From Clarkia xantiana subsp. parviflora (Eukaryota; Streptophyta; Magnoliopsida; Myrtales; Onagraceae), in the NCBI GenBank assembly GCA_036873135.1, contig JAPTYO010000021.1:508579-572578 (forward strand): a stretch of DNA of 64,000 nucleotides, written 5' to 3'. Under the pieces are notes generated by a model. The model worked only from the letters and a program-made list of their open reading frames with translations, had not been told where the DNA came from and made no database searches. How positions within the stretch are numbered: position 1 is the stretch's first letter; the number at the start of each line of letters is the position of its first letter. The position numbers were made by a program, and so were the translations under genes. Below are positions 20,561-53,167 of this stretch, in pieces.

Positions 20561-20676
20561 AAAGACGAAAGACAACAAGACATCGGAATTAAAGGAGTCT
20601 AATATTGATAAAGGGCTCGAAGGCCCGACGACGACACAAAAGAAGAAAATACAAGGACTCTGAAAGATAAAAGCAT

Positions 20677-23891: not shown

Positions 23892-23903
23892 CTTGGGGGC
23901 AAA
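23892..23903 (+). promoter_or_regulatory. Polypurine tract of B
   Basis: cttgggggcaaa immediately precedes the 3' LTR start TGATGGG. Confidence 0.85.
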
Positions 23904-32830: not shown

Positions 32831-33417
32831 TGATGGATATACGCCCAATTTGAACCCGTTGACTTCCGAATCGTTTTATTTTTATCACCCCGTTAATGAT
32901 TGTAAATCGAAACTTTGACCCGAACACCCCGCCGAAACACCAATGGTCCGGATGAGGCAAAAATACTCGTCCGGGCCACGCGTCGAACTCACCTAGGTGA
33001 GATCGGGTGGCAACACCCAATCTCCCCTAGGGGAGATCGGGTTGGCCAACCCATCTCCCCTAGGGAGGGGTTGGGTGGCCACACCCAACCCCTACCCTTG
33101 GGGGTCGGATTTTCTCTCCGCCCCCAAGGGCCCTGGCACCGTTTCCCGACTCCCGCACTTAGATTATTTCCGCCAACCTCTCCATGCTTCAAGGTTTTAA
33201 TTATGTGATCAAGGACTAATTAATTGTGTTTAAAGGTTAACGATGTCATTAAGTCACCTTAATGACAGCGTTGCCTATAAATATAACCCTTCCACCATTC
33301 ATTTGATCATCTTGGCTATTTATGCAATTTTAGCTCTAGCTTCTCTCTAGACTTTATCTCTCTAAAAAGGGACGTACTGACTTAGGCATCAGAGAGGGTT
33401 CATCAAGCACCACCCCC

Positions 33418-33449
<32 letters not shown>

Positions 33450-33614
33450 TGCTTGATACCGCCCTTTGTGAAGGACCCCGAGAAGAAGGATACAAAGAGA
33501 ACAGAAGGACTTGCATCATAACGACTAGCCCCGAGAGTACTGAATCCGTCAGTTCACCAGTTAGGAATAAGCTTTAGATCGACGACCCGTTGACCGAGGG
33601 CTTAGAACCTAACA
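32831..33614 (+). repeat. 5' LTR of element D
   Basis: 784 bp, TGATGG...CTAACA. U3 contains perfect palindromes around CCTAGG at 32990-33100. A promoter core, cctataaatata, is at about 33271-33282. R/U5 contains a 9-bp perfect stem around a very long C run. Homologous to the LTRs of E, K and M. Confidence 0.93.
33402..33457 (+). other. R/U5 stem-loop with poly-C loop, element D 5' LTR
   Basis: ATCAAGCAC (33402-33410) pairs perfectly with GTGCTTGAT (33449-33457). The loop is nearly all C, with 30 uninterrupted C at 33419-33448. The same fold with different bases occurs in E (41702-41738), K (62103-62138) and M. Its role is unknown; packaging, dimerisation or 3'-end formation are possible. Confidence 0.6.
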
Positions 33615-33616
33615 CT

Positions 33617-33632
33617 TGGCGCCGTCCGTGGG
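33617..33632 (+). promoter_or_regulatory. Primer binding site of D
   Basis: TGGCGCCGTCCGTGGG, two bases after the LTR, matching those of B and E. Confidence 0.8.
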
Positions 33633-33665
33633 TTTCGAATAGAAAGCCTGGCAATCACGAGAGCG

Positions 33666-35138
33666 TTGACGAACAACTTAGCGTCTAGAGATAATCGCCC
33701 ACCTGGGGGCAATAGGCAAGAGAGACAGCCTATACCTCCAGCAAGGCAGCCTAACCCAGAGAAACAGCCTGCACACCCAGAGCCTCAGGTAGCCCCACAG
33801 GTACCCCAGCCTAACAATCAGGGAGGAGGACCTTCACGCCCAGCTGGGGCTGAGTCTTCAACAGCTTCAACTCCATTAGCTAGGAGGCCACAGAGACAGG
33901 GGGGCAACAAGGAGTGCCATCCCAATACACGACACCTCCTAAGGGGTACTACTATGAGGCTCAACCTCAAGGGTATCCACATGGAATGCCGGCTCAAAGG
34001 AACGACAACCGCGCCCACACAACCAACACAAGGCCCGCATACTCGCAAGGAGCACAGACAGTGACTCCGGTGTTGATGAGCGCATTGGATGAGCTGCTAG
34101 CCTATAGAGAGACTATGAGGAACAGGCGGGGAAGGCGACACCAGCATGAAGAAGAAGACGTTCATGAGGAAGAACAAGTCCCAGAAGAAGAACACTACTT
34201 GCACCCTCCAACAGGGCAGCGAGAAGAACAAAGGAGAGATGACCAAAGGCCACCCCCAGAGGGAAGGCAGCAGTTTGTGCCTCCAAGGCAGCAACAGCCA
34301 CAGCAGGATGCCAGGGCATACACCCCGCTGGGGGCAGATAGACAGGCAAGACCTCCAAGGAGGCAGGAATTCTACCAAGTACCCCAACAGGGATATCAAG
34401 GATACGCTTATAGTCCGTACCACCACAGACAATGGATCCCGGTAAGCCCAGTTTACAATTATGGGATATCAGAGAGACTATACTCCAACGCCGGTGATGA
34501 TAACCCCGGAGGAGATAGAAGCTATGATAGCAAGGAAGATGAGTGAGTCCAAGAGAAACGGATTGCACTGCCTGAGTGACAACACAAACCACCCCTTCAC
34601 GAGGAAGTTGGAAATGAACAAAGTGCCAGACTCCTTGCATACAATACAGATAGCAAAATACAATGGCAAGGGAGACCCTTTAGAGCACGTCCAGCAGCAT
34701 GAAGCCTCTCTATTCGGGAGAACAACTGATGACCGCTACAAGGCACTCTTATTTCCAAACACCCTGTCAGGGGTGGCCTCACATTGTTTTTTCAGCCTAC
34801 CTACTGAGAGCATCCATTCATGGGCACAACTAAAGGCGAAGTTTCTTTAGAGATACTTAGGAGAAAGGAAGCTGCTCAAAGGGACAGGCTCCCTAGATGA
34901 TGTGAAGCAAGAGAATGATGAATCTTTGGCTGATTACTACACAAGGTTCAACCAGAACATAGCAGACATACAAGGCGACATCACCGAGGGTGAAATAATA
35001 AGAGCCTTCATAAGGAACCTTGGCCGCTTTGGGTCCACATTGGCAGAGAAGATGGCCAAAAAAACCTGCAAGTACCTTAGAGGAGTTGGCAGGGAGAGTG
35101 AAAACTCACATAGACCTAGAGAGGCACAGAGTGAGTAA
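33666..35138 (+). pseudogene. gag: Gag of element D: leader and capsid, broken
   Basis: The first codon is TTG where E has ATG (ttgacgaac against atgacgaac). The proline-rich leader matches that of E (PSRPAGAESSTASTP). A frameshift near the G6 run at about 33898-33904 moves on to a QPQGYPHGMP-type stretch unique to D, and another lies near 34450. Capsid (34600 onward) reads DPLEHVQQHEASLFGR, LLFPNTLSGVASHCFFSLP, a TAG at 34848-34850 in place of the usual Q, then DESLADYYTRFNQ. A further shift at the A7 run (about 35054) leads into the next long frame. Three shifts, one stop and a lost start make this copy inactive. Confidence 0.8.
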
Positions 35139-37011
35139 GAAAGCCAAGATTCAGGCAGCAAAGGAGGAAATTACAAAGCAGAATAGGGGAAAGCCACCTC
35201 AGGCACCTCAACCCATAAGGCAACAAGAATGGCGTCCGCCTCAGCAAAGAAATCAGATGGGTGAGCCATTGAAGGCTAGAGAAATAAATGTTATCAAGTT
35301 CATACCATTGAACACCACCCCAGCAGTGGTCCTGAGAGAGATGCGAAATCAGAAATTATGGTCGCCCCCCGGAAGATGGAGAGCCCCAATGGTAGGGACA
35401 CACAAGGATAGATGGTGTGATAACCATGAGACGTATGGGCATGATACAAACGAATGCTTTAGCTTGAAGCTAAGTATCAACAATATCATCCAAAGAGGGG
35501 AGCTGAAACAGTTTGTTGATCACGGTGGCAATGGCACACAACCAGGGCCATCACACAAGGATAAAGGCAAAGACAAGGTAGATTATAATCCCCCACCTAA
35601 CAAGAGGGGGACTATAAACATGATACATGGAGGAGTGGCATCGGGTGGCCTAACAGCCAATGGAAGGGAGGTTTATGCATCCAAGCTGAGCTCAGTGCCA
35701 AAGTGGAGAAAGAGACCACGAGAAGGAGAGGAGATGAAGGTTGAGTTTTCGGAGAAGGACAAGAGTCATATTGTCTTCCCGCACGATGATGCTTTAGTCA
35801 TCATGATGGACATCGATAACTTCGATGTAAAAAGGATACTAGTAGATGGAGGCAGCTCCGCAGACCTCCTAAGCCTAAGGGTCCTGAAAGAGATAGGAAA
35901 AACAAAGGCGGATATCAAACCAGTCAACTTCCCTCTGGTTGGCTTCTCAGGGGCAACAAGTTACCCCCTAGGAATGATAACCCTACCTGTGACCATGGGC
36001 CAGGGATGGACACAGCTAATAGTAAACGTCAACTTCATGGTGGTTGAAAGCCTAGGAGCCTACAACGTGATCTTAGGAAGAACAACCATAAATCCATATG
36101 AAATTGTGCCATCTACCGTGCATCAGAAGCTGAAGTATATCGCCGAAAACGGAATTGGGGAAGTCTTGGGTGATCAACGCATTGCAAGGCAGTGCTACGT
36201 TAACTCCATGAGACATGGATCACACAAGTCAGACACAGTGGCTATGGTCATGACTAGGGCCATCCAAGACAAAGAGAAGGTGATGAAAAGGCTAAGGCAG
36301 GGAAAGATGAAAAAGGGAGTTACACTCCGCCTGAGTAAGCAGTTCTTTCAAGGACTAGCTAAGAAGAAGCAGAGAAGTAAGGCTGTAAGGGTAACAAGCA
36401 TACCTTGGCAGCCAGAGAATGCAGAAGGAAAGAGAGCAAGGGACTCCATTGAAAAGGGTTTCCGATATATAGACGACATCAAGCAAATGCCAAAGGAGTC
36501 CATATCAAGATACTTTGGGAGATTCTTCAGCTATGGTGCAAGCATGGACATCACAAGAAGTGAGGCCGTAAGGGCCTTCCTTAGAAACATGCATCCAACC
36601 TCAATTGAAGCATATGGAGGGCTCTATGAGGTGGTCATGACAAGCACAATGAGGGAGCTCAAAGAGAGACTGGACAGGGCATTCGCAAAAGAGATAGGGC
36701 AATGTGAAGAGGTCCTTGAAGAAGAAAAAGAGAACAACATACTTGAAGGAGTTGAAGACTTCAAATTCACACCCCTCACGGCAAAGATAGAAGAAATTTT
36801 TGAAGAGTACCTCAAAAAAGAGCTACCAAAATGCAAGGAGGGCAAGGCCTTCCTGGGGAAAGATGCACAGGGTTGGTGTGAGTACCATGGGACCTGGGGG
36901 CATCAAACCAACAATTGCATGGTCTTGAAGATAGAGGTGGAAGAGATGATTCACAAAGGGGGCCTAAAGGAATACATGGCAACAGACACACTCACCACCC
37001 CATATCCTTAG
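35071..37011 (+). CDS. gag-pro: Capsid end, nucleocapsid, protease and second Gag module of element D
   Basis: Open for over 640 codons in one frame (the frame is open from 35020, but homology to Gag starts near 35071 after the A7 shift). Order: capsid end (PASTLEELAGRVKTHIDLER); CHHC knuckle WCDNHETYGHDTNEC (about 35416-35460); IHGG linker; aspartic protease with LVDGGSS (about 35838-35858) and GRTTINP. Where RT should start, the text instead gives a second, diverged capsid C-terminal region (ESISRYFGRFF, ITRSEAVRAFLRNMHP) and a second CHHC knuckle WCEYHGTWGHQTNNC (about 36874-36918), then a stop. I know no Tat element with this Gag-protease-Gag order. Confidence 0.85.
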   Translation, partial: STLEELAGRVKTHIDLERHRVSKKAKIQAAKEEITKQNRGKPPQAPQPIRQQEWRPPQQRNQMGEPLKAREINVIKFIPLNTTPAVVLREMRNQKLWSPPGRWRAPMVGTHKDRWCDNHETYGHDTNECFSLKLSINNIIQRGELKQFVDHGGNGTQPGPSHKDKGKDKVDYNPPPNKRGTINMIHGGVASGGLTANGREVYASKLSSVPKWRKRPREGEEMKVEFSEKDKSHIVFPHDDALVIMMDIDNFDVKRILVDGGSSADLLSLRVLKEIGKTKADIKPVNFPLVGFSGATSYPLGMITLPVTMGQGWTQLIVNVNFMVVESLGAYNVILGRTTINPYEIVPSTVHQKLKYIAENGIGEVLGDQRIARQCYVNSMRHGSHKSDTVAMVMTRAIQDKEKVMKRLRQGKMKKGVTLRLSKQFFQGLAKKKQRSKAVRVTSIPWQPENAEGKRARDSIEKGFRYIDDIKQMPKESISRYFGRFFSYGASMDITRSEAVRAFLRNMHPTSIEAYGGLYEVVMTSTMRELKERLDRAFAKEIGQCEEVLEEEKENNILEGVEDFKFTPLTAKIEEIFEEYLKKELPKCKEGKAFLGKDAQGWCEYHGTWGHQTNNCMVLKIEVEEMIHKGGLKEYMATDTLTTPYP

Positions 37012-37261
37012 TTTAATATTAAGCACTTTGCATGTTTAAGCATTCTAAGTCTTTCAAAAATAGCTTTTGAGAAGGAGAACTCAAGAAGTCACTCCGACTC
37101 TGCAACTATCTTTGAATTCCTCTAAAGGGTGTCTTGATCCATCCAAGGCACCCCATATGTACATAAAGCATGAATGCTCCTAATGAAGTAGAAGTCACTC
37201 AAAAGTGTCTTTCAAAGAAGATGGTGATATAATCATTATGTTATCATTACACAGATATGAC
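37012..37261. other. 3' UTR of D before the repeats
   Basis: No gene. It is homologous to 46136-46430 of E (for example agaaggagaactcaagaagt in both), which confirms that D and E share their 3' UTR. Confidence 0.75.
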
Positions 37262-38030
37262 TTCCAAGTCAACAACACCCTCAACGACCCCAAGAGCGTA
37301 TCTTGAGAGTATTTTTCATACTACGACCTTCAACGCCCCCAAGAGCGCATCTTGAGAGTAGTTTTCATACTACGACCTTCAACGCCCCCAAGAGCGTATC
37401 TTGAGAGTGGTTTCCAAAAACTACGAACTTCGACGCCCCCAAGAGCGTATCTTGAGAGTGGTTTCCAAAAACTACGAACTTTGACGCCCCCAAGAGCGTA
37501 TCTTGAGAGTGGTTTCCAAAAACTACGAACTTCGACGCCCCCAAGAGTGTATCTTGAGAGTGGTTTCTAAAAACTACGACCTTCGACGCCCCCAAGAGCG
37601 TATCTTGAGGTAGATTTTAAACTACCAGATTCGACGCCCCCAAGAGCGTATCTTGAGGTAGATATAAAACTACCAGATTCGACGCCCCCAAGAGCGTATC
37701 TTGAGGTAGATATAAACTACCAGATTCGACGCCCACCAGGAGCGTATCTTTGATCTAACCTGTGCCCTCCGGGAGCCTATCCTGTGAAACGTTAAGTGCC
37801 CTCCGAGAGCCAGTCTCGTGAACAGTTTTCGACGCCCACCAGGAGCGTATCTTTGGTCTAACTTGTGCCCTCCGGGAGCCTATCATGTGAAACGCTAAGT
37901 GCCCTCCGAGAGCCTATCTCGTGAAAAGATTTCGACGCCCACCAAGAGCGTATCTTTGGTCCAACTCCAGTGCCCTCCGAGAGCCTATATCGTGAAATAT
38001 TCACTACACCCCTATGAGGGTATCTGAAGG
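37262..38030. repeat. 3'-UTR tandem repeats of element D
   Basis: About ten units with cgacgcccccaagagcgtat then cttgaga or cttgaggtag, period near 50-57 bp (37262-37730). They are followed by longer units of about 100 bp containing gtgccctccgggagcctat and cgtgaaacg (37727-38030). E has the same two repeat types in the same order. Many units include a short inverted repeat such as GTAGT...ACTAC. Confidence 0.9.
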
Positions 38031-38378: not shown

Positions 38379-41043
38379 TCAACCAGAACCTGCTGGAGAG
38401 TCCTCACGGTCCTGACCCTCTGTGGAACAACCACTAACAGAGCTCGAAGAAGATGAGGAAGAGCCTGAACTATCAACATCCATGGGTATAGCATCCACCT
38501 GTGCAGGGGCAGGCTCATCAGCAACGAAAGCTTGACCCCTAAGAACGGCCATATAGCCAGCAGCATATGTCCCAAAGTCACCCAGATCATTGACGGGAAA
38601 CTGGGGATCAATACTGAAGATATGATCGACAAGATACTCCCCGAACTGGTTCATCTCCTGGTTCAACCGAACGCTGTAATCAGCAGCAAAGGCAGGGAAA
38701 GCTTTGTACTCAGCTACTGCAACAGCTCTCTCCTCCGCCCGGCACCTCGCCTCAAGCTTTGTCAACTCCTCAGCATGGTGTGACGAGGCAACATCAGCCT
38801 CACGGTGCAAACCACCCACGGTAGTCTCAAGTAGAGCTACCTGGCCCCTAAGCTCCTGCATCTGCAAGTTGGACAGGCGAGCCTTCTCAGCGGCAGTAGC
38901 AAGCTCCGCCTTCAAGGATACCTGGTTATCCTCAAGGGCTTTCTTCTCATCTGACAGCTCAAGCGCAAGAGACGACAAATTCACCATGTCGGACATACCC
39001 TGAAAAATCAACAAGCGGTAAATGACTTAGCAAGCAATCACATGAAAATAGAAAAGGAAGAGAAACACCACTCACAGGGACATAGCGGGATAACACCCCC
39101 TGGATGAAGCGCCGGGTCTCCTTAGGGGACTTGGGCTGAGGAGCACGATCACCGGGAGCGATGGCACCGCGAAGTACCCGAATGCCAACCTCCGGGGTGC
39201 GCAAGGAGGAACCGCTGTCAAAGTGGAACTCCTTCAATCCAGCAAAGGGAGTCCACTCAGCTCCCACAATATCCTCGTCAGTGAGGCGCGCAAAGTCCTT
39301 CTGACTCAAAGCCGGAGGCCCACCTATGCAAAAAAAAAAAAGCAAAGTAAAGAAAAACACAAGCATAGATGCATCAATGACATAAAGAATAAACGAACCT
39401 GAAGACCGTGCCCTTAGCTGGGGGGCAGGAGATGGAGAATCAGTGACCACCCCACCATCGCCAGCAGGCCGCTTCCCTTTATCAGCCCGGGAAGGCGCCT
39501 CTTCGACCACTATCTCTTTGTCGCGAGACAGGGTCGGGGGACGAACACCAGAGGGGAGGAGGATCTGCAGCCTTCTTCTTCTTGACAGCCGAGGCCCCGG
39601 CCTCAGAGTCGGACCTCCGTGACTTGGACTTAGAAGGTCCAGAGCCCTTGCCCACAGAGACGACTCTCTCGGTCACCAAGGGAGAGTGCCCTAACAACAC
39701 ATGGAAAATAACATGAGAAAAAGCACAAGTATACCATAAGAGGAGAAAGAAAGAAGTATACCAGAGGCCCCAGCAGTCTTCCCAGGTATAGGGGACTTCT
39801 TCAGAGTAGAGCTGGAGGGAGCCCTCCTCTTGCTCAAGTCAACTGGCGCTGCCTGCACGTTATACGTTTTACCGTGAAACCAACCTACAAGGGAAAAACA
39901 GAAAATAAATATAGATGAGAAGACTAAGTAACATACCGAATCCCCAGAGAGAGGAGTCAAACTAATCCCTGCCTCATAGAGGTCTGTCTCGGTCACTAAG
40001 GACACAGAGCAGTAGGACTGGGTCTTGTGGCTCTCGTAGATAGTCTTCTTGGTCTCCAAGTCCACGAAGAGAACTCCCCAAAGGTAGGCCAGCCGTCCGA
40101 TCGGTCCTCATTCAGAACCGACCAGGTAACATATCGATCCGTGATAAAGAAGTAGTGTTTGGCCCAATGGCTCGCCGAATTATCGCTCTAAGCCACGAAA
40201 CGAAGAGAAGCATTCCACTCAACCCTGCTCAACCCGAAATCAGCAAATCGGGAATCTTTGAGGGAAGGATAGCGAGTCACGAAACTCGCGAAGCCTACCT
40301 TCTTCTGATACTGAAATCGGAGGAAGCACCGGAACAAGACCAAGGAGTACTTCCAGGAATACCACTTGCATAGCACTAGGAAACCCACCCAGACGCGAAT
40401 AGCGCTGGGGGCAAGGTTCACCGGGGAGAACCTAAAGAATCTGCTCAGCTCTACGAGCTCATCACAATAGGGCAGGCGTAACCCAAACCGAATCTGAGAA
40501 GGATAGACGACAACCTTCCCCCTAGGAGGCTCTGTCACTGTCTTGCGAGTGTTTTCCAAAGAAGGGAGGAAGGGGTACAAAGGCTCGTCTAAAGGACAAA
40601 TGTCGCCTAAGGTGACATGCTCATTATAGTCGGACCTAGTCAAATGGTTCTCCGACAAGGTAACAAGACCTAAATCAAAGGCACTGAGGAATTCCAAGCT
40701 CGAATCAGGCTCCGACCAATACCCTAACTCAGTATCCGACTCAGAATCCGACTCCGAACTAATGCCAGGAAAGAAAATAACGCGACGAACAGAGGGAAAG
40801 AAAAACTTACTCATCCTTCTAAGGATGTAGCGCCTCTGCCAAGTTTGTGTACGGGGGCACCACCACGAGTACAATACCTGTCATAGCATGACGGGTGTTA
40901 AGATAAGAAGATCTCCGAAAAATCCGGGCATACCCCGGCACCCGACAAGCAACAACCGAAAATTCAAAGGCACCCAACGAAGGTAACGAATACATGCTAA
41001 GAACCCTACGACGATAAAAATCGGGCAATTTTACTCGGATCAA
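38379..41043 (-). pseudogene. Antisense extra gene of element D, cut off by E
   Basis: On the minus strand: an upstream frame 41043-40819; then 40874-40188 with an acidic serine stretch (SSESDSESDTE), PRGKVVVYPSQIRFGLRLP and RVWVGFLVLCKW, which recalls PF04195. A TAG at 40188-40190 precedes SHWAKHYFF. One frameshift near 40066 leads to 40065-39940, ending LTPLSGDS at a GT. A basic, proline-rich part follows (39700-39400), then the shared module with EWTPFAG, TPEVGIRVLR and PGDRAP (39330-39080). The last part is a coiled coil starting GMSDMVNLSSLALELSDEKK and ending at 38379. E was inserted upstream of this gene, so its promoter region is now at 51203 onward. Confidence 0.7.
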
Positions 41044-41225
41044 AAAACCGATTTCCGAGCAAAATTACGAGTGATGGATATACGCTCAATTTGAACCCGT
41101 TGACTTCTGAACCGTTGTATTTTTATCATCCCGTTAATAATTGTAAATCAAAACTTCAACCCAAACACTTCGCGAGAACATCAACGGCTCGGACGAGGCC
41201 GAAGCGCTCGTCCGGCCAAGGTAAA

Positions 41226-41400
41226 CTCACCTAGGTGAGGTTGGGTGGCCACACCCGACCTCCCCTAAGGGAGATCGGGTCAGCCAACCCGATCTCCCCT
41301 AGGGGAGATCGGGTGGACCAACCCGATCTCTCCTAGGAGGGATGGGGTTGGCCAACCCCATCCTCCCTAGGAGGGGTTGGGTGCCCTCACCCAACCCCTA
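41226..41400. repeat. Array of palindromes in U3 of E
   Basis: CTCACCTAGGTGAG is a perfect 14-bp palindrome. It is followed by GAGATCGGGT-cagcca-ACCCGATCTC, AGATCGGGT-ggacca-ACCCGATCT and GGATGGGGTTGGCCAACCCCATCC, each separated by CCTAGG or CCTAAGG-like hexamers, and by GGTTGGGTG-ccct-CACCCAACC. The 3' LTR has one more unit (about 50614-50647). D has shorter versions. Confidence 0.9.
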
Positions 41401-41701
41401 CCCTTGGGGGTCGGATTTCTCCTCCCCCCCAAGGGCCCCGGCACCATTTTTGGACTCCCACACTCGGTTCACTCCGCCTACCTTCTCCGTATCCTAAGGT
41501 CTTAATTATGCGCTTAAAGGTTAATTAATTGTGTTTAAAGGTTAACGATGTCATTAAGCCACCTTAATGACACCGTTGCCTATAAATACCCCACCTTCAC
41601 AATTCATTTGGACATCTGGGCAATTTGGATTATTTTGCTCTGACATCTCTCTAGCTTTATCTCTCTAAAAACGACACTGACTTAGGCATCGGAGAGGGTT
41701 C

Positions 41702-41738
41702 ACCAGGCACCACCCCCCCCCCCCTCTCTGTGTCTGGT
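41702..41738 (+). other. R/U5 stem-loop with poly-C loop, element E 5' LTR
   Basis: ACCAGGCAC (41702-41710) pairs with GTGTCTGGT (41730-41738): eight Watson-Crick pairs and one G-U. The loop holds 12 C. Compared with D the stem bases change on both sides while pairing is kept. Confidence 0.6.
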
Positions 41739-41895
41739 ACTGCCCCTTCTGCAGGGCGCAAGGAGAAGAGAAGCGACAGAAGGAAGGACGCAAACTAAGA
41801 CAGAGCAACCCGAGAAGACCGGATCATCCACCCCTCCAGTGAGGAACGAGATTTGAACCGACCACCCGTTGACCCAAATCCCGGAACCTAACACT

Positions 41896-41911
41896 TGGCG
41901 CCGTCTGCGGG
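41896..41911 (+). promoter_or_regulatory. Primer binding site of E
   Basis: TGGCGCCGTCTGCGGG just after the LTR, same type as B and D. The Gag-leader ATG follows at 41945. Confidence 0.8.
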
Positions 41912-41944
41912 CTTCAGACATAAAGCCTGGCTATTACACGAGCA

Positions 41945-44900
41945 ATGACGAACAGCAGGGTGTCTAGGCACCACCGCCCACCAGGGGGCAATGGGAGAAG
42001 GAGAGAGCCTATACCCCCAGGAAGGCAGCCTAACCCTGGGAAGCAGCCAATGCAACCAGAACCACAAGAAATACCACAGCCTCCTCAACAGAACAACCAG
42101 GAGGGAGGACCCTCACGCCCAGCTGGGGCTGAGTCCTCCACAGCCTCCACACCTCGGGCAAGAAGGCCACAGAGAGAAAGAGAACAACAGGGAATGCCAT
42201 CCCAGCACACGGCAAACGTATATGTCATCCATGGAGGTTATGGAGCTGGAGGAGTGTCAGCGAATGCCAGAGAAGCATATATGGCAGAGTTAGGGGACCC
42301 TAAGCCAAAGGAAGAACAAGCAGAAGGAAAGAGAGAAGACATAATAGAATTTTCAAGAAGAGACATGGAGCATGTGTTACCAGACAACAAGGATGCCCTG
42401 ATCATAACAATGAAGATCACTGATATGGACATTGGAAGAATCCTAGTAGACAGTGGAAGCTCACCCAACATCATTAGCAAGAAAGTCCTCAACATACTAG
42501 GAGTAAGGCCAAGTAGCATAAAACAGGTTCACTCCCCCTTGGTGGGATTTTCAGGAAAGCCAACATACCCACTGGGGGCAGTCACACTACCTGTGACACT
42601 GGGTACAGGCCAGAGGCAGCTAAAGATTGATGTCCCTTTCTTCATCACAGAAGAAATGGAGGAATACAATGGAGTCCTGGGTACCACTACAATCAACAAG
42701 TGGGGTATGGTACCATCAACCCTACATCAGAAAATGAAATTCCCCACAGGCCAAGGAATAGGGGAAGTAAAAGGTAACCAGAAGGTAGCAAGGAAATGTG
42801 CAAGGATAGCACTAGGCAAGAGGAAGAAAACAAGAGAGGTCCTACTAATAGATGAGGACCCAAGAGAAGATTATGGAAGACCAGCCCCCATGGAGGAACT
42901 AAAAGAGATACTCATAGAAGAACCCGATAGGAAGGCCAAAATCGGGACTGCCTTATCTCAGGAAGAGGAAAACCACTTAGTAGCTTTACTAAGGGAATAC
43001 AAGGATCTGTTCGCCTGGTCACCAAGCGATATGCCAGGAATATCAGAAGAAGTAATCTCACACAAGCTCAATATAGACGCGGCAACGCGACCAACAACAC
43101 AGAAGGTGAGACCAATGGGAGGAAGCAAAAAGATAGCTATCCAAGAAGAAGTAGAAAAGCTACTAAAGGCAAAGTTCATCAAGGAAATCAGATTCCATAC
43201 ATGGGTGGCAAACCCAGTACTGGTAAAGAAGCCGGGGGGAAGTTGGAGAATGTGTATCGACTATCGTGACCTAAACAAAGCATGCCCTAAGGACTCATAT
43301 CCGCTACCAAGAATAGATCAGTTAGTGGATGCAACATCAGGTCATCAACTAATGAGCTTCATGGATGCATACTCAGGATATAACCAGATAAAAATGGCCC
43401 CTGAGGACGCCCCTCACACAGCATTCTATGCTGATAGCGAGATATACCATTACACGGTGATGCCTTTCGGACTCATAAATGCTGGAGCAACATACCAAAG
43501 AATGGTCAACAAAATCTTCGGGGACATGATAGGAAAGACAATGGAGGCATATGTAGACGACATGATCGTCAAATCCAAAGAGAAGAAAGACCATGTGGAG
43601 AATCTTCACTCAACGTTTGAGAGGATGAGGCAATACCAAGTCCGCCTAAACCCGAAAAAATGCGCATTTGGGGTGCAATCAGGGAAATTTTTAGGCTTCA
43701 TGGTAAGCCAGCGAGGCATAGAGGTAAACCCCGAAAAACTCCAGGCAATCGAAGAAATGCAGTCACCTACGAAACACAAAGAGGTTCAACGACTGAATGG
43801 GAGGTTGGCAGCCCTTAACAGATTCCTATCCAAAATAGGAGACAAGGCATTACCCTTCTTTGAGGTACTAAGGGCAAACAAGAAATTCGAATGGACACCA
43901 AGATGTGAGGAGGCCTTCCAGCAACTCAAACAACATCTAAAGACACTACCACCCTTAGAAAAGCCTACACCAGGGGAGCCCCTCTACCTCTATATCTCCG
44001 TGAGCAACGTGGCAGTAAGCTCAGTGCTAATTAAAGAAGAAAACGCGGTACAATTGCCGGTATACTTCGTAAGCAAAACATTGGCAAAGTACGAGATCAA
44101 CTACTTGCCAATAGAAAAGTACCTCTATGCACTGATTATATCAGCAAGAAAGTTGAGACCGTATTTTCATGGGCATGAAGTAACAGTCCTCACAGACCAA
44201 CCACTGAAACACCTCCTCCAGAGACCAGACACATCGGGAAGACTGACCAAATGGGCAATTGAGCTAAGTGAGTTTCGTATTCATTTTGCCCCAAGAACAG
44301 CCATAAAGGGACAGGCTCTAGCAGATTTTATTGCCGAATTCACCGGAATCAATCCAGACGAAGACTTGGGAGAAGTCAGAACTACAAGCGAGGCAAGTAG
44401 TAGTCAGGAGAAACAACCAGAAGAATTATGGGAGATGCATACCGATGGGTCATCCAACGGAGGAGGTTCAGGGGCAGGCCTCTTACTATACCCACCAAAC
44501 AGCGATACACCTATGCGCTATGCCATGGCGCTCACCTTTAAGGCAACAAACAATGAGGCTGAGTACGAAGCACTGATAACTGGCCTGAGAATAGCCAAAG
44601 GAGTAGGGGCAAAGCATCTAAGAGTCAAGTGCGGTTCTCAACTAGTTGTCAATCAAGTGAAAGGAATATACACTGCAAAGTCCGAAAACATGCAGAAATA
44701 CTTGCAGCAGGCCAGAGACCTAATAAAGAGCTTCCAAAGCTTCGACATTGAGTCAGTCCCAAGAGAACAAAACCAAGAGGCAGACGCCTTAAGTAAACTA
44801 GCTCTAGGGGTAGAAGCAGGCAAAGAGGTTCACTTTGTAGAACAAAGAATGCAATCAGTGATAGAACAAATGGAGGTTCTAGTAATAGATGAAGCAGAAG

Positions 44901-46135
44901 CCTGGATGACCCCAATGCGTCAATACATCATGGAAGGAAAGCTCCCAAAGGATAAGGTGGAGGCAGTCAAGATTGAAAGGATGGCTAGGAATTACGCAGT
45001 GATGGACAATGAACTCTACAAGAAAGGTTACTCCACGCCTTTCCTCAAATGCATAACATACCCAGAAACAGAGAGAGTGCTTGCAGAACTCCATGAGGGA
45101 GATGTGGGGTGCCATGAGAGAGCACGATCTATAAGCCGAAAGGTCTACAACCTAGGATACTATTGGCCATCAATGAGTAAAGAAGTAGCAGACTTGGTAC
45201 AAAAATGTGATCACTGCCAAAGATATTCAAGGAATATAACAGCCCCAGCAGCAAAGCTAAGCTCCATCTCAGGAGCCTGGCCATTCGCACAATGGGGGAT
45301 AGATCTGATAGGCCCCCTACCGAGAACAAAAGGTCAGAAGACTTGCATAATTGTAGCAATAGACTACTTCTCCAAGTGGATAGAAGCAAAGGCAATGGGG
45401 AAGACAACAGACGACCAAGTCGTCAATTTCATCCAATCTCACATTGTCTCAAGGTACGGAGTGCCAAAAGCAATAATAAGTGACAATGGCCCACAGTTCA
45501 AGAGCAAGAAACTGCAGTGGTATTGCGAAAGACTGAATATAGACCACCGTTTCGCATCAGTAAAGCACCCTCAGACAAACGGACAGGTAGAGTCGGCAAA
45601 CAAAATAGTGCTAGATGGCCTAAAAAAACGACCCCACGCTACCAAGGGAAGTTGGGTAGATGAGCTGGAAAATGTTCTATGGGCAGTGCGGACAACACCA
45701 AAGATATCCACAGGAGAAACGTCATTTGGCCTAGTGTACGGGACTGAAGCGGTAGCGCCAGCAGAAATGGCAGTATCATCCCTAAGGACCACGTACTTTG
45801 AAGAGCATGAGAACAACAAAGCAAGGCTTCTAGACTTAGACATGGTGGAGGATAAGAGATGGAATTCAGAAGAGGCACAGGCACGAATGCGCCTTGTATC
45901 AGCAAGATACTACAACCGCCAAGTCAAGGAAAGGCAATTCCACGTAGGGGAACTTGTGCTCAGAAAGAACGAATTCTCACACTTAGACCAAGTCAGAAAA
46001 TTATCTCCAAAATGGGAAGGACCATACAAGATAGCGTCGGTTCCCTACGCAAATGCTTACTGCCTCGAGGATGGGGAGGGGTATATCTCCACAAACACCT
46101 TCAGTGGGGAGCACCTAAAGAAGTACTATGTCTAA
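41945..46135 (+). CDS. pol: Gag leader fused to protease, RT, RNase H and integrase (capsid and nucleocapsid absent)
   Basis: An intact 1396-aa frame. Residues 1-89 match the proline-rich Gag leader of D, then MPSQHT jumps directly to VYVIHGG, so about 500 residues of capsid and nucleocapsid are missing in frame. Protease has LVDSGSS (D169). RT has WRMCIDYRDLNKACPKD and YVDD (536-539). The RT-linked RNase H is followed by a second RNase H with D834 (HTDGSS), NEAEYEAL and EADALSK, but KCGSQLVVNQ has G897 where B has D. Integrase has HHCC and D1120, D1180, E1216 (35 residues between the last two), then GPYKIA and FSGEHLKKYYV. It can make replication enzymes but not a particle, so it would need Gag from another element. 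Confidence 0.95.
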   Translation: MTNSRVSRHHRPPGGNGRRREPIPPGRQPNPGKQPMQPEPQEIPQPPQQNNQEGGPSRPAGAESSTASTPRARRPQREREQQGMPSQHTANVYVIHGGYGAGGVSANAREAYMAELGDPKPKEEQAEGKREDIIEFSRRDMEHVLPDNKDALIITMKITDMDIGRILVDSGSSPNIISKKVLNILGVRPSSIKQVHSPLVGFSGKPTYPLGAVTLPVTLGTGQRQLKIDVPFFITEEMEEYNGVLGTTTINKWGMVPSTLHQKMKFPTGQGIGEVKGNQKVARKCARIALGKRKKTREVLLIDEDPREDYGRPAPMEELKEILIEEPDRKAKIGTALSQEEENHLVALLREYKDLFAWSPSDMPGISEEVISHKLNIDAATRPTTQKVRPMGGSKKIAIQEEVEKLLKAKFIKEIRFHTWVANPVLVKKPGGSWRMCIDYRDLNKACPKDSYPLPRIDQLVDATSGHQLMSFMDAYSGYNQIKMAPEDAPHTAFYADSEIYHYTVMPFGLINAGATYQRMVNKIFGDMIGKTMEAYVDDMIVKSKEKKDHVENLHSTFERMRQYQVRLNPKKCAFGVQSGKFLGFMVSQRGIEVNPEKLQAIEEMQSPTKHKEVQRLNGRLAALNRFLSKIGDKALPFFEVLRANKKFEWTPRCEEAFQQLKQHLKTLPPLEKPTPGEPLYLYISVSNVAVSSVLIKEENAVQLPVYFVSKTLAKYEINYLPIEKYLYALIISARKLRPYFHGHEVTVLTDQPLKHLLQRPDTSGRLTKWAIELSEFRIHFAPRTAIKGQALADFIAEFTGINPDEDLGEVRTTSEASSSQEKQPEELWEMHTDGSSNGGGSGAGLLLYPPNSDTPMRYAMALTFKATNNEAEYEALITGLRIAKGVGAKHLRVKCGSQLVVNQVKGIYTAKSENMQKYLQQARDLIKSFQSFDIESVPREQNQEADALSKLALGVEAGKEVHFVEQRMQSVIEQMEVLVIDEAEAWMTPMRQYIMEGKLPKDKVEAVKIERMARNYAVMDNELYKKGYSTPFLKCITYPETERVLAELHEGDVGCHERARSISRKVYNLGYYWPSMSKEVADLVQKCDHCQRYSRNITAPAAKLSSISGAWPFAQWGIDLIGPLPRTKGQKTCIIVAIDYFSKWIEAKAMGKTTDDQVVNFIQSHIVSRYGVPKAIISDNGPQFKSKKLQWYCERLNIDHRFASVKHPQTNGQVESANKIVLDGLKKRPHATKGSWVDELENVLWAVRTTPKISTGETSFGLVYGTEAVAPAEMAVSSLRTTYFEEHENNKARLLDLDMVEDKRWNSEEAQARMRLVSARYYNRQVKERQFHVGELVLRKNEFSHLDQVRKLSPKWEGPYKIASVPYANAYCLEDGEGYISTNTFSGEHLKKYYV

Positions 46136-46435
46136 GAAGAAAGCACAGGCAAAAGACCATATCCTTAGTTTCATATTTAGCACTTCGCATGTTCAAGCTT
46201 TCCAAGTTTCTCAAAAACAACTTCTGAGAAGGAGAACTCAAGAAGTTACTCCAACTCTACGACTATCTTTGATTTCCTCCAAAGGGTGTCTTGACCCATC
46301 CAAGGCACCCCATCTATACAAAAAACATGAATGCTCTTAAGAGAGTATAATTTCCTTCAAAGGTATTTTACAATGAATGTGATGATATAATCATGAAGTT
46401 ATCCTTACACAGATATGACGTCAAGTCAACGACAG
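46136..46435. other. 3' UTR of E before the repeats
   Basis: No gene; homologous to 37012-37261 of D. Frames here (46128-46340, 45859-46227) overlap the pol end and are shadows. Confidence 0.75.
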
Positions 46436-47480
46436 ATTCGACGCCCCCAAGAGCGTATCTTGAGAGTAGCTCTTATACTACGACACTCGACGCCCCCAAG
46501 AGCATATCTTGAGAGTAGTTTTTATACTACGACACTCGACGCCCCCAAGAGCGTATCTTGAGAGTAGTATTCATACTACGACCCTCGACGCCCCCAAGAG
46601 CGTATCTTGAGAGTGGTTTCCAAAAACTACGAATTTCGACGCCCCCAGGAGCGTATCTTGAGAGTAGTGTTCATACTACGACCTTCGACGCCCCCAAGAG
46701 CGTATCTTGAGAGTAGTTATTACACTACGACCTTCGACGCACCAAGAGCGTATCTTGAGAGTGGTTTCCAAAAACTACGAATTTCGACGCCCCCAGGAGC
46801 GTATCTTGAGGTAGATTTGCAACCTACCAGATTCGACGCCACCAAGAGCGTATCTTGAGGTAGAAAAAACACTACCAGATTCGACGCCCCCAAGAGCGTA
46901 TCTTGAGGTAGATTTCTAACTACCAGCTTCGACGCCCACCAGGAGCGTATCTTTGGTCTAACCTGTGCCCTCCAGGAGCCTATCCTGTGAAACGTTAAGC
47001 GCCCTCCGAGAGCCTGTCTCGTGAACAGTTTTCGACGCCAACCAGGAGCGTATCTTTGGTCTAACCTGTGCCCTCCAGGAGCCTATCCTGTGAAACGTTA
47101 AACGCCCTCCGAGAGCCTGTCTCGTGAACAGTTTTCGACGCCAACCAGGAGCGTATCTTTGGTCTAACCTGTGCCCTCCAGGAGCCTATCCTGTGAAACG
47201 TTAAGCGCCCTCCGAGAGCCTGTCTCGTGAACAGTTTTCGACGCCAACCAGGAGCGTATCTTTGGTCTAACATGTGCCCTCCAGGAGCCTATCATGTGAA
47301 ACGTTAAGCGCCCTCCGAGAGTCTGTCTCGTGAACAGTTTTCGACGCCAACCAAGAGCGTATCTTTGGTCTAATCTGTGCCCTCCGGGAGCCTATCCTTT
47401 GAAACGTTAAGTGCCCTCCGAGAGCCTGTCTCGTGATCAGATTCGACGCCCACCAAGAGCGTATCTTTGGTCTAACAGTA
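46436..47480. repeat. 3'-UTR tandem repeats of element E
   Basis: About ten units near 50 bp with cgacgcccccaagagcgtat (46436-46925), then five to six units of 103 bp with ctttggtctaacctgtgccc and gccctccgagagcctgtctc (46925-47480). The 103-bp period is exact between 47031, 47134 and 47237. Same types and order as in D, with more long units. The minus-strand frame 47061-47273 is a translation of the repeat. Confidence 0.92.
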
Positions 47481-47909: not shown

Positions 47910-48974
47910 CTATTTCTTCATCTCCGCAATATGCTTAACAGCAAAATCTGACAAATCACCAAGTCGAGGAAAAGGAAAGTCAGGAGCAATCATGTAAATA
48001 CGCTCGAGAATCTCCTTCAAAGAAATACGTTTAGCCACATAGCAACGAACGTCAATAGCAGCCTGATAAGAGGAAGAGGCCTTATACTCAGCGACGGCAC
48101 ACTCTTTCGTCTCAACACGAAGCATCTCCTCCAGAGAGACCAACTGAGCAGCCCGGAGTGCCTCATCACGATAAAACCTTTGTCTCAAGGCCTCAACCTC
48201 TTCCTTGAGAAGAGCAATGCGACCCTCAAAGTCTCGGCAACGCAAATCTGTGATGCGACTATGCTCCAAACAACTAATAAGCCTGGAGTTAAGGGAGACA
48301 CAAATGTCCTCGTACACCTTTCTCTCATCAGCAAGGTCAATAGCAAGGGTGGACAAATTAACAAGGTCGGCCATACCCTGCAACAAAAACAAAGGATGAG
48401 ACAGATAACGCACGGAAAAGAAATATGCTAAAGGATAACACGGTTAACAAAAATTACAGGAGCATAGCGAGCCAACACATCACGAGCCAATTCATAAGTT
48501 GCCTCCGACCCTTTAGACGGGGACACACGATCGGCAGGAGGAACAGCAGACTGCAGAACACGAACTCCAACCTCAGGAATTTGCGAAGAAGATTGATTGT
48601 CAAAACGAGCCCCACGCCCATAATAAGGCGCCCACTCAGACCCAACAATTCCATCAACAAGTGGACGAGACAGCTCCTTCCGACTCAGACGCGGAAGGCG
48701 AAGTCTACCTATAACAAAGCACAGAGTAAATACCAATATACATTAAGGAAACTCAGATGTTCAAGGACTCACCAAACAAGGAAGAAGGAAAAGATGGCTC
48801 CCGGACCTTCGATTGGGGGGCATCAATATAGAAAGAAGACGGCACCCTAACATCACCACCCTTACCTCCAATTAGAGGACACTTCCCCGCACCATAGAAA
48901 ACCGATCTCTTTGCAATCGAAGGTCCGGTCCCAGAATTAACTACCCCCACACGTACTGGCCTCTTACTCCTCAT
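47910..48974 (-). CDS. Antisense extra gene of element E (short form)
   Basis: Three segments on the minus strand: 48974-48770 (basic, SKRPVRVGV...SFPSSLFG, ending at a GT), about 48710-48450 (shared module with GSEWAPYYGR, IPEVGVRVLQ, PPADR, RYAPV), and 48398-47910 (GMADLVNLSTLAIDLADERK, coiled coil, CAVAEYKASSSYQA, end). Each aligns by motif with D and F. The N-terminal PF04195-like region present in D and B is not found; a minisatellite and non-coding sequence stand in its place. Exon borders are not fixed. Function is unknown. Confidence 0.6.
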
Positions 48975-49128
48975 CAGTCGCCGGGGAGTTCTGCTGATCG
49001 AAAAAAGACAAGTTTAGCCCAAGGAAAACAGGAAGCGAACAGTGGACAAAAGATACAAATTCATTTCCCTAAAATGATAGGTACAAAGCCAAAAGACAAG
49101 AATAGAAAGACGACAAGAGAAATCCCGC

Positions 49129-49500
49129 CGGCCAAAAGGCAGAGACAGGGGGCAAGGGGGAGATAGTTATAACTCCCAGCATAAAGAAACCCCACCAGCC
49201 AACAGGCAGGGGCAGGGGGGCAGGGGGAGATAGTCATAACCCCCAGCATAGGGAGACCCCACCAGCCAACAGGCAGGGGCAGGGGGCAGGGGGAGATAGT
49301 CATAACCCCCAGCATAGAGAGACCCCACCAGCCAACAGGCAGAGGCAGGGGGGCAGGGGGAGATAGTTATAACCCCCAGCATAAGGAGACCCCACTAGCC
49401 AACAGGCAGAGGCAGGGAGGCAGGGGGAGATAGTCATAACCCCCAGCATAGAGAGACCCCACTGGACAACAGGCAGAGGCAGGGGGAAAAAGGAGATAAT
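49129..49500. repeat. 67-bp minisatellite in the antisense region of E
   Basis: Five to six units of about 67 bp with cagggggagatagtcataac and cccagcata followed by accccaccagccaacaggca. The marker cagcata recurs about every 67 bp from 49177. On the minus strand it translates into a leucine/alanine/glycine repeat in several frames, which is likely meaningless. Confidence 0.9.
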
Positions 49501-49798
49501 TATAATCCCAATATAGAAGACTTCGCCCGCCAGTAAGCGGAAACATGAGGGCAAAAAGATGGAAAAAGGACGAATCAAACAGGACTATATTACCATGAAG
49601 ACATACAAATCAAGAATGAAACAAGTAAGGAAACGATTGAAGGAGAAGCGGGATTAAGTCCCTCAAGAGCAATGCTTACACAAAAAAAATACGTACCTCA
49701 ATGCGACGCGCGCCCCGAGAAGTAAGCCTGACCAGAAATCCCACCGTCAAAAAGAAGAGAAGAGAAAAGGACAACGAGAATGAGGTAATCACTTACCC
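49501..49798. other. Upstream part of the antisense transcript region in E
   Basis: No long frame. On the minus strand, GCATTGAG|GTACGT near 49695 looks like a splice donor, which would fit an untranslated or short first exon after the TATA box. Confidence 0.35.
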
Positions 49799-49805
49799 TT
49801 TTATA
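49799..49805 (-). promoter_or_regulatory. Antisense TATA box in element E
   Basis: Minus strand TATAAAA preceded by AAAAACCCTAATCC. D (51843-51848) has AAAACCCTACACCC before its TTATAA, and B has CCCTAG next to its box. The position matches that expected for the antisense gene promoter. Confidence 0.5.
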
Positions 49806-50330
49806 GTACAAAGGATTAGGGTTTTTCCAAAGTCGCCAAATCGACACCGTTGATTTTTAGAAAGGAAAATTTCAAGGGACAGATTCAAAAACTAGTTCCC
49901 ATTAACCACGATTTAACTCACACTCACCATAGTTAACATCCCATAGGTTTATTTTCTAGTATCCCATACTTAGAAAAATTTTGGACCAAAATTGAAATTT
50001 TTTCTCCACTTAGGCAAATCCCGTTACGAAATTGAAGCATGGGTCGCTTAGGTGTATTCGTATTGTATTCCTATGCGGACGTGTATTTTTTGAGTATACA
50101 CCTATAGCAAAGATAGATTTATTACTCCCACCTCAGACGGACGCGTGCTTAGGCACACGTCCGCGCTACTCTAACGTTTACAACTCCTCTATCTCATAAG
50201 GCAGAGAGCAGAGCCAGAGATACGCATCCATGGGTAAGCAAGCATCCCGACGAGAAGGTAAAACCCCGGTTTCAAATTGCGCGTGTCATACCATCCTAAA
50301 ATAGAGTCAATCAAGGGTTAGGCCATTGGT
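49806..50330. other. Conserved non-coding stretch before the PPT of E
   Basis: No frame. It is similar to 51860-52378 of D (for example cccatacttagaaaaatttt against cctatacttagaaaaaaatt), so it belongs to the shared 3' UTR. Confidence 0.65.
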
Positions 50331-50333
50331 TGA

Positions 50334-50345
50334 CTCGGGGGCATG
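50334..50345 (+). promoter_or_regulatory. Polypurine tract of E
   Basis: ctcgggggcatg directly before the 3' LTR; identical in D (52381-52392). Confidence 0.85.
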
Positions 50346-51197
50346 TGATGGATATACGCTCAATTTGAACCCGTTGACTTCTGAACCGTTGTATTTTTAT
50401 CATCCCGTTAATAATTGTAAATCGAAACTTCAACCCAAACACTTCGCGAGAACATCAACGGCTCGGACGAGGCCGAAGCGCTCGTCCGGCCAAGGTAAAC
50501 TCACCTAGGTGAGGTTGGGTGGCCACACCCGACCTCCCCTAAGGGAGATCGGGTCAGCCAACCCGATCTCCCCTAGGGGAGATTGGGTGGACCAACCCGA
50601 TCTCTCCTAGGAGAGATCGGGTCGGCCAACCCGATCTCTCCTAGGAGGGATGGGGTTGGCCAACCCCATCCTCCCTAGGAGGGGTTGGGTGCCCTCACCC
50701 AACCCCTACCCTTAGGGGTCGGATTTCTCCTCCCCCCCAAGGGCCCCGGCACCATTTTTGGACTCCCACACTCGGTTCACTCCGCCTACCTTCTCCGTAT
50801 CCTAAGGTCTTAATTATGCGCTTAAAGGTTAATTAATTGTGTTTAAAGGTTAACGATGTCATTAAGCCACCTTAATGACACCGTTGCCTATAAATACCCC
50901 ACCTTCACAATTCATTTGGACATCTGGGCAATTTGGATTATTTTGCTCTGACATCTCTCTAGCTTTATCTCTCTAAAAACGACACTGACTTAGGCATCGG
51001 AGAGGGTTCACCAGGCACCACCCCCCCCTCTCTGTGTCTGGTACTGCCCCTTCTGCAGGGCGCAAGGAGAAGAGAAGCGACAGAAGGAAGGACGCAAACT
51101 AAGACAGAGCAACCCGAGAAGACCGGATCATCCACCCCTCCAGTGAGGAACGAGATTTGAACCGACCACCCGTTGACCCAAATCCCGGAACCTAACA
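50346..51197 (+). repeat. 3' LTR of element E
   Basis: 852 bp. It differs from the 5' LTR by one added 34-bp palindromic unit, four fewer C in the R/U5 run and about three substitutions. Confidence 0.95.
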
Positions 51198-51202
51198 ACG
51201 AT

Positions 51203-52380
51203 TATGCCCCTCAACGGAAATCAACATGCGAATGACATCACAACGTCAAATTCAAGCGGGAAAGGTTCAAACGGCAAAAAATATTTCCCTAATCAACGAC
51301 TATCTACGGCAATCACGCATTCAAGCAAACATCGGCAATAAAATATCGGTAATTCAAGTATCGACATTTTGTACTGTAATGGAAGGGAAAAGGATTGGAC
51401 CTTCGGAAAACCCGACACGATTTGGTAAACGGGCCCGGAATCGACACCTTGCCGGCGTCGGAGTGCAGGTCCCGCCTGCCCCGCCTCCGCTGTCGTTCGC
51501 CGGAGTCGCAGGAGCCCTTGCGGTCGCTCGCAGTCGTCGCCCTCCGCTGGTCCGGAGAAATCCGTCGCCGTGGCGAGCTGCAGTCTCCGTCCTGGCCGTC
51601 CTCCGCGCCGTCACAAGCTGGGTCGCTGTCCCGACCAGCGATCATCACGCCGCCGCTGCCTCCCCGCGCCTCCGCTCCGTCCGAAGGCCACCACGTTGCT
51701 GGCCGGAATTTTGGCCCTTGCTGGAATTTCGGCCGGCCCCCCTCCCTTGGTGTGCAAAATTTTCTCCCTTGGCCTCCAAGTGTGGGAAAATGAGGAAACG
51801 ATGACAACTTTTTTCAAATGAGCTAATTTTCTTAACTCCTCCTTATAATGAGAAGGGTGTAGGGTTTTTTAGATGACATAATCTCAACCATCCATCAATT
51901 AAAAGGAGATCCAAGGGCTTAGATAGAAAACTACTATCTTCTCCTTTTTTAACTAAGGTTAGGAGTATTACTATCCTAGTTAACATCTTATAGGCATATT
52001 TTTTAGTATCCTATACTTAGAAAAAAATTTGGACCAAAATCGAAATTTTTCCCCACATAGGCTTACCCCATCATGAAATTGAAGCATGGACTCACTTAAC
52101 CATATTCATGTTGCATCCCCACACATGCGTATATTTTCCGAGTATAAGCTCGTGACGGTATTGGATTTATTATTTCCATCTCAGACGGACACGTGCTTGG
52201 ACACGTGTCCGTGCTATTCTGACGTTTGCAATTCCTCTATCTTATAAGACAGGGGGCAGAGTCAGAGACACACACCCATGGGTAAGTAAGGATTCCGACA
52301 AAAGGTAAAATTCCGGCTTCAAATTACGCGTGTCATACCATCCTAAAATAGAGTCAATCAAGGGTCAGGCCATTGGTTGA
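51203..52380. other. Right part of D 3' UTR with GC-rich block
   Basis: Resumes D after E. A GC-rich, CCG-rich block at about 51420-51790 has long frames on both strands with no recognisable domain. The K element has a similar block at about 60840-61010, at the same distance before its antisense TATA. Both lie on the minus strand downstream of that box, so they may be the untranslated first exon of the antisense gene. After 51860 the sequence matches the pre-PPT region of E. Confidence 0.5.
51843..51848 (-). promoter_or_regulatory. Possible antisense TATA box in element D
   Basis: Minus strand TTATAA about 15 bp after AAAACCCTACACCC. Comparable to E, but weaker as a TATA box. Confidence 0.35.
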
Positions 52381-52392
52381 CTCGGGGGCATG
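52381..52392 (+). promoter_or_regulatory. Polypurine tract of D
   Basis: ctcgggggcatg, identical to E, directly before the 3' LTR. Confidence 0.85.
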
Positions 52393-53162
52393 TGATGGAT
52401 ATACGCCCAATTTGAACCTGTTGACTTCCGAATCGTTTTATTTTTATCACCCCGTTAATGATTGTAAATCGAAACTTTGACCCGAACACCCCGCTGAAAC
52501 ACCAACAGTCCGGACGAGGCAAAAATACTCATCCGGGCCACGCGTCGAACTCACCTAGGTGAGATCGGGTGGCTACACCCGATCTCCCCTAGGGGAGATC
52601 GGGTTTGCCAACCCATCTCCCCTAGGGAGGGGTTGGGTGGCCACACCCAACCCCTACCCTTGGGGGTCGGATTTTCTCTCCGCCCCCAAGGGCCATGGCA
52701 CCGTTTCCCGACTCCCGGACTTATATTATTTCCGCCAACCCCTCCATGCTTCAAGGTTTTAATTCTGTGATCAAGGACTAATTAATTGTGTTTAAAGGTT
52801 AACGATGTCATTAAGTCACCTTAATGACACCGTTGCCTATAAATACAACCCTTCCACCATTCATTTGATCATCTTGGCTACTTATGCAATTTTAGCTCTA
52901 GCTTCTCTCTAGACTCTAGACTTTATCTCTCTAAAAAGGGATGTACTGACTTAGGCATCGGAGAGGGTTCATCAAACACCACCCCTCCCCTCCTCCGTGC
53001 TTGATACTGCCCTTTGTGCAGGACCCCGAGAAGAAGGAGACAAAGAGAACAGAAGGACTTGCATCAGAACGACTAGCCCCGAGAGTACTGAATCCGTCAG
53101 TTCACCAGTGAGGAATAAGCTTTAGATCAACGACCCGTTGACCTAGGGCTTAGAACCTAACA
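52393..53162 (+). repeat. 3' LTR of element D
   Basis: 770 bp. Compared with the 5' LTR it has about 28-30 substitutions, a 7-bp gain (ctagact) and a short mixed C/T run in place of the poly-C loop. One stem pair is lost (ATCAAACAC against GTGCTTGAT). Confidence 0.93.
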
Positions 53163-53167
53163 ATTCA

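Follow-up and report, generated by a model that had tools for sequence, protein, structure and literature searches.

The long terminal repeat (LTR) elements BARE-2, TR-GAG and Dasheng, which are Gag-less, Gag-only and non-coding, respectively, are moved in trans and need a complete partner. Maize holds a two-way arrangement: Cinful carries POL and Zeon carries GAG in what is described as a near-mutualism, and in 25 families GAG and POL lie on different copies, <1% having both (PMC8547701). Among Retand elements, 10 of 63 clusters are defective, and Alopecurus myosuroides has five GAG-less clusters with recent activity (7a-c, i, j; 294 copies) and, in Table 1 of that study, clusters 2 and 3b, which have GAG and protease but lack both RNase H and integrase (98 copies; the text counts one) (PMC11963269). 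Athila elements without pol, with gag under purifying selection, appear in the excerpted text of PMC2410132. Here we analyzed a 64,000-nucleotide stretch of the Clarkia xantiana subsp. parviflora genome (contig JAPTYO010000021.1, positions 508,579 to 572,578; "the window" throughout), in which one 10.1-kb LTR element, E (41072-51197), is nested inside another, D (32831-53162). D and E probably represent a Retand/Tat-type system split into Gag-forms, which carry leader, capsid (CA), nucleocapsid (NC), protease (PR) and a second, partial Gag ("half-Gag"), and Pol-forms, which carry leader, PR, reverse transcriptase (RT), RNase H and integrase, like maize Cinful and Zeon. The Gag-forms are the window D plus D-forms with E-type LTRs, and the Pol-forms are E. 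The parts of D, of E and of a third element, C, are as follows.

32831..33614, forward strand: D 5' LTR; target duplication ATTCA at 32826-32830
33615..33632, forward strand: D primer binding site (PBS), E's type, the role suggested by position
33665..33936, forward strand: portion of the proline-rich D Gag leader common to E; at least 40 genome copies at 96-100%
34572..34847, forward strand: D CA, N-terminal half (CA profile E 4.6e-23; 8e-22 without window sequences)
34851..35123, forward strand: D CA, C-terminal half, past an in-frame stop (CA profile E 1.1e-12; rebuilt 3.9e-11)
35014..37011, forward strand: D open reading frame (ORF), 665 aa, with NC, PR and second partial Gag
35344..35538, forward strand: D first NC zinc knuckle (NC profile)
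35611..36210, forward strand: D PR (PR profile E 4.8e-66)
36454..36729, forward strand: D second capsid segment CA', C-terminal domain (CTD) only (CA profile independent E-value, iE, 0.011-0.021)
36850..36990, forward strand: D second NC zinc knuckle NC' (NC profile iE 9.2e-14; rebuilt 2.3e-13)
36994..37997, forward strand: D 3' untranslated region (UTR) block and 49-51/103-nt repeats, common to E
38379..40880, reverse strand: D antisense gene region; TRP28 (PF04195) at 40188-40880
51203..52392, forward strand: D remainder past the E insertion; polypurine tract (PPT) at about 52381-52392
52393..53162, forward strand: D 3' LTR; target duplication ATTCA at 53163-53167
41072..41893, forward strand: E 5' LTR; target duplication ACGAG/ACGAT, one mismatch
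41894..41911, forward strand: E PBS, the role likewise suggested by position
41924..46135, forward strand: E ORF, 1403 aa, unbroken, ATG at 41945
41945..42216, forward strand: E leader, fused in frame straight to PR; junction identical in 34 further copies
42218..42811, forward strand: E PR, fast-evolving (PR profile)
43223..43702, forward strand: E RT; 39 further copies at 98-100%
43892..44275, forward strand: E first RNase H (profile)
44435..44800, forward strand: E second RNase H (profile)
45044..45583, forward strand: E integrase, zinc domain and core (profile)
46151..47477, forward strand: E 3' UTR block and repeats, common to D
47910..48742, reverse strand: remnant of the E antisense gene, in which no TRP28 part was found
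50346..51197, forward strand: E 3' LTR; PPT immediately upstream, about 50334-50345
13509-24597: C, complete gag-pol Retand-type element, all domains in three ORF pieces

Profiles for PR, RT, the two RNases H (RH1, RH2), integrase, CA and NC, each derived from no more than 112 retrieved proteins, were run against 1572 stop-to-stop ORFs of at least 25 aa on both strands of the window. PR was found in C, D and E; RT, RH1, RH2 and integrase in C and E; and CA and NC in C and D, with one stray RH2 match outside C and E (E 0.03) and a minus-strand CA match within E at chance level (E 0.23-0.25). The first CA profile included C, and the first NC profile included C and the first NC of D; rebuilding both without window sequences (76 CA and 100 NC proteins) left the picture unchanged. 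E and C pol gave no match to D-only DNA by tblastn at E<=1. The coding sets of D and E are complementary, PR being the sole common domain, which bears out the contents that a sequence-only reading had assigned to each element; that reading had missed the second CA-CTD and NC segment after the D PR. It had rightly called the window D copy broken: the aligned place has no start codon, and Gag is fragmented by frame changes and a stop. The ORF of C, whose LTRs are 99.0% identical, is broken by two stops. The notion of a dead E PR was unsupported, as E deviates in 2 of the 22 columns that are conserved at 90% (21 of 87 relatives being as bad) and in 8 of the 36 that are conserved at 80% (7 of 89 relatives).

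The D LTRs (784 and 770 nt) differ by 30 substitutions over 763 aligned sites and the E LTRs (822 and 852 nt) by 3 over 818; at a rate of 1.3e-8 per site per year, the pairs give ages of about 1.6 and 0.14 million years, respectively. Internal regions measure 8647 nt in D without E and 8452 nt in E. The D 5' LTR contains a run of 30 C (33419-33448; longest C run at the matching place of the 3' LTR: 4), and the E LTR contains overlapping inverted repeats (41214-41396; 62-78 nt, 72-78% complementary), of which the D 5' LTR has shorter ones only.

A second RNase H is a Tat feature, and RH1 and RH2 are both present in E and C. E joins C with a support of 1.0 in an RT phylogeny of retrieved gag-pol proteins, a tree without named Retand references, and the LTR and internal lengths of D and E lie within the Retand ranges (315-1194 bp and 7380-12869 bp). 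An antisense TRP28 ORF, as in 97% of published Retand clusters, is present in D (Pfam: 27.6 bits; cut-off 26.2); the C antisense ORF stays under the cut-off (23.5 bits), and none was found in E by Pfam (9 ORFs) or by tblastn better than E 0.02. Roughly where D has this part, E has a 66/67-nt minisatellite (49116-49553). Protein searches returned 41 matches to D among 7999 scored, at identities of 25-46%, and 1635 to E among 7977 scored, the best 120 listed being 39-49% identical. Viral contigs searched with the E ORF gave 8 pattern matches and zero relatives, and LTR/PPT and PBS pattern searches of other sequence collections gave 0 matches.

The control sequences of D and E are alike at 77% DNA identity in the LTR (77.3-77.7%; Kimura two-parameter distance 0.27-0.28), 78% in the PBS region, 75% in the leader (77 common codons, 74% amino acid identity), 83% in the post-stop UTR and 91% in the repeats; the 415 nt preceding the 3' LTR are 79% identical and the last 26 bases before it all identical. 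The LTR type, PBS, leader, repeats and PPT region are indeed common to both, as had been claimed, and the antisense gene is so only in part, with 949 nt alignable at 57% and TRP28 found in D only. Members of one LTR family share at least 80% identity; since the D-E LTR identity misses this rule, the window D is a sister lineage of E, and E-forms and their Gag-forms pass it (LTR part 94% on average).

The D and E proteases share 45-48% protein identity and their synonymous sites are saturated (proportion of synonymous differences, pS, 0.82 vs. 0.80 ± 0.04 when shuffled); leader synonymous sites are unsaturated (0.53 vs. 0.75 ± 0.07). Part of the protease difference reflects fast evolution in E, as the E branch is long in the protease tree (0.876; D: 0.274; C: 0.397). 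E and C share 67% of residues from RT to integrase and 41% in PR, where eight reference pairs with RT-integrase identities of 0.65-0.70 average 0.63 in PR (lowest: 0.48). A Tajima count with C as outgroup gave 43 sites at which D equals C and 15 at which E does (chi-square 13.5), and 98 of 105 counts with other outgroups, which are not independent, went in the same direction; from RT to integrase, C is the closer of the two to just 19 of 112 outgroups, counted by shared sites against E. An origin of the D coding core in another family was rejected, as the protease tree joins D and E (0.88) within a C-D-E group (0.99). Also rejected was within-window recombination read from block heterogeneity, a signal carried by tandem repeats (p = 4e-12 with them, 0.07 without).

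We searched the host assembly (695.6 Mb, 59 contigs), and the census covers best-scoring copies only, namely 40 of 5025 RT, 40 of 2302 E-leader and 40 of 2741 D-leader candidates. The 40 RT copies, window E counted, are 98-100% identical across the whole query, and all 40 are Gag-less, because 6 coincide in position with E-form leaders, in 29 the leader runs directly into PR and 5 are leaderless; the 34 copies other than the six position-matched ones were judged from 201-nt pieces. The leaderless Pol-forms (L082, L084, L086, L090, L092) read PBS, 51 nt, ATG and PR, with PBS regions ranging from D-like (35/35 bases in L086) to D-E intermediate. The 40 E-leader copies scored 98-100%, and 30 loci of this search were classified: six E-form loci with the same leader-PR junction and PR 98.8-100% identical, and 24 in which D-like CA-NC lies beneath an E-type LTR and leader. 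PR, half-Gag and UTR follow in order without RT in 12/12 Gag-carrying copies seen as 3-kb pieces (PR 82-84% and half-Gag 77-79% identical to D; UTR 88-93% to E), and 401-nt pieces have half-Gag in place in 11/12, giving a D-form arrangement in 23/24. No complete gag-pol copy was seen among the 40 Pol-forms and the 23 of 24 Gag-carrying copies classified, a best-scoring sample too small to gauge the 1% level. GAG and POL reside in separate copies with common LTR signals, and the sorting by domain that had been suggested yielded many young Gag-less Pol copies and many Gag-PR copies without RT, an outcome that favours the sequence-only reading. A PF00665 search (best 150 of 17767) and ten 9.9-kb stretches around its matches showed other elements, except for an E-type LTR in L009, which led to L019, a separately found Gag-form.

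Between E-forms and Gag-forms, leader identity averages 98.4% (E-E: 99.0%; Gag-Gag: 98.9%) and that of the LTR part 94%, and the window D leader is 76% identical to E-forms and to Gag-forms with E-type LTRs. In the LTR-plus-leader tree (32 rows), the six E-forms require 3 label changes forced by well-supported branches, and 0/200 bootstrap trees unite them in one block, yet they are more clustered than shuffled labels (mean of 5.6 changes). Given near-identical leaders that intermingle in the tree, the flanks have been exchanged and are a recent common possession of both forms. The coding cores are old, since PR synonymous sites are saturated between the forms (55% DNA identity; pS 0.83 over 60 pairs vs. 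0.80 ± 0.04 for shuffled codons). By these comparisons E's partner appears to be a D-form with E-type LTRs, the window D being an older sister, so that two forms with common signals stand as had been proposed, and the exact D-E pairing gives way (E leader 98% identical to the E-LTR D-form, 76% to the window D).

The half-Gag is under purifying selection. A frame of at least 240 codons is kept in 10 of 13 other copies, and dN/dS to the window D is 0.19 (0.17-0.27; 10 copies), being 0.055 in NC', about 0.07 in CA', 0.38 in the linker and 0.44 in the spacer. CA' scores 16.7 bits against 6.5 for the best shuffle, its fold matches CA-CTDs, and the segment is kept in other copies; as a protein query the half-Gag gave no match at E 0.001 among 1820 candidates. 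Gag-form PR is open in 12 of 13 copies, with pN 0.011 and pS 0.129 among copies and pN 0.035 and dS 1.2 to the window D. Such selection on both parts indicates that Gag-form proteins were long kept in use.

Elsewhere in the window lie a satellite array (1-9309), in which a 101-nt unit recurs about 92 times with 82% matches, and inverted copies (27367-31433 and 55950-60075; 78-83% identical) with copia-type pol fragments, the type being read from ORFs.

Precedents in maize, Alopecurus, pararetroviruses and Retand make a two-way split a known kind, and the sequence-only reading's view of it as unusual is contradicted by the 25 maize families (PMC8547701). Cinful/Zeon (RLG00001) likewise has separate GAG and POL elements with homogenised LTR signals; unlike there, the Gag-form here also codes PR, and the available sections do not mention a second half-Gag (PMC8547701). 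Alopecurus Retand, in the text available, resembles our system in having both defective types in one species, a long region between pol and 3' LTR and antisense TRP28, and differs in that its author left the forms unpaired, a complete cluster is present and the LTRs measure 454-577 bp versus 770-852 in D/E (PMC11963269). Common bean Retand I, per the excerpted report, is non-autonomous and recently inserted, with two GAG and without RNase H, additional RNase H and integrase, but there protease and RT are linked to the second GAG, whereas here the half-Gag follows PR with no RT (PMC13392006); one two-GAG Retand of another build is thus found in print. The rice pararetrovirus fossils ePVCVL and ePVCVL2 show complementary gene loss, homogenised noncoding regions and very dissimilar proteases in the portion available, although they are pararetroviruses and also have a movement-protein domain in common (PMC5491270). 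CA-CTD plus NC without the CA N-terminal domain is the part composition of Ty1 p22, a likeness in parts only: p22 too is a Gag C-terminal half as a separate unit, but the available account makes it identical to Ty1 Gag, with its own transcript, and an inhibitor, whereas the half-Gag is divergent and in frame after PR (PMC4599808). The half-Gag after PR and the copy-level exchange evidence set the D/E system apart as a variant.

Under the split reading, the two forms would mobilise each other in trans: Gag-form RNA would give particle and protease, Pol-form RNA the enzymes, and the common leader/UTR would let both RNAs be packaged, with template switching within mixed particles perhaps keeping control blocks alike. 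Pol may be helped into the particle by the leader peptide that most Pol-forms carry, but 5/40 Pol copies are without it, so it is not required or is otherwise supplied. Several observations weigh against this reading. The census showed no Pol-form whose LTRs are D-type; two of the five leaderless copies have a D-like PBS region (35/35 and 33/35 bases). The window E deviates at a second-RNase-H position uniform in 108/109 relatives. The Gag-carrying L106 has no match in its 401-nt piece, and with top-scoring copies alone scored and 12 of the 24 Gag-carrying copies judged by such a piece, complete copies below about 5% would escape. The genome also has complete elements of Retand type, such as C in the window, which might serve both forms. 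Finally, 12 copies sampled from the 40 best D-leader copies (96-100%) show half-Gag in place in 5, UTR in 1 and other contents in 6, of which 3 have a common unmatched stretch, 2 resemble shortened derivatives and 1 matches C.

The common stretch of those three copies with D-type leader (L110, L111, L112) is 95-97% identical among them and without real match to the window or to retrieved proteins, L110 having only C-run matches of 21-26 nt to the window; they are perhaps a third form.

A more far-reaching version of the split reading, which we put forward only tentatively, would make the system an obligate two-part retrotransposon that has no complete form, its LTR, leader and UTR swapping between the forms and its coding cores long apart; in it, the half-Gag would be a working part that enters the particle via its CA C-terminal domain, there limiting particle formation like Ty1 p22 or tethering partner RNA or Pol in place of the lost Gag-Pol link. 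The main rival is one-way dependence, in which both forms are driven by related elements with complete gag-pol that belong to other LTR families, and neither form needs the other. It finds footing in C, which is complete, of Retand type and a neighbour in the window, and in the Alopecurus genome, where a complete cluster (133 copies) accompanies both defective forms; but the C LTR is unmatched to D or E (window self-comparison, matches of at least 150 nt), Gag- and Pol-forms swap flank blocks with one another, a sign of shared particles, and selection acts on the half-Gag and on Gag-form PR, as expected if the protein is used. We therefore consider it unlikely. Poorer still are the prospects of a few old recombinations explaining the flank likeness without continuing partnership: homology edges are sharp, and distant Athila families recombine (PMC2410132, in excerpt), but leaders are 98.4% identical today and E-forms sit at three places among Gag-forms. 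Private wreckage, i.e., single copies that lost different parts, would suit the broken window D and is contradicted by the census, with the same arrangements in 40 Pol-form and 23 Gag-form copies, making it the least credible by far.

The split reading would place a split retrotransposon beyond maize, with evidence from individual copies for the two forms, for the exchange of control sequences and for selection on Gag-form proteins, and would thereby open the mutual dependence of selfish elements to direct testing. In the half-Gag after PR there is a concrete candidate for the means by which a split element may do without a Gag-Pol fusion.

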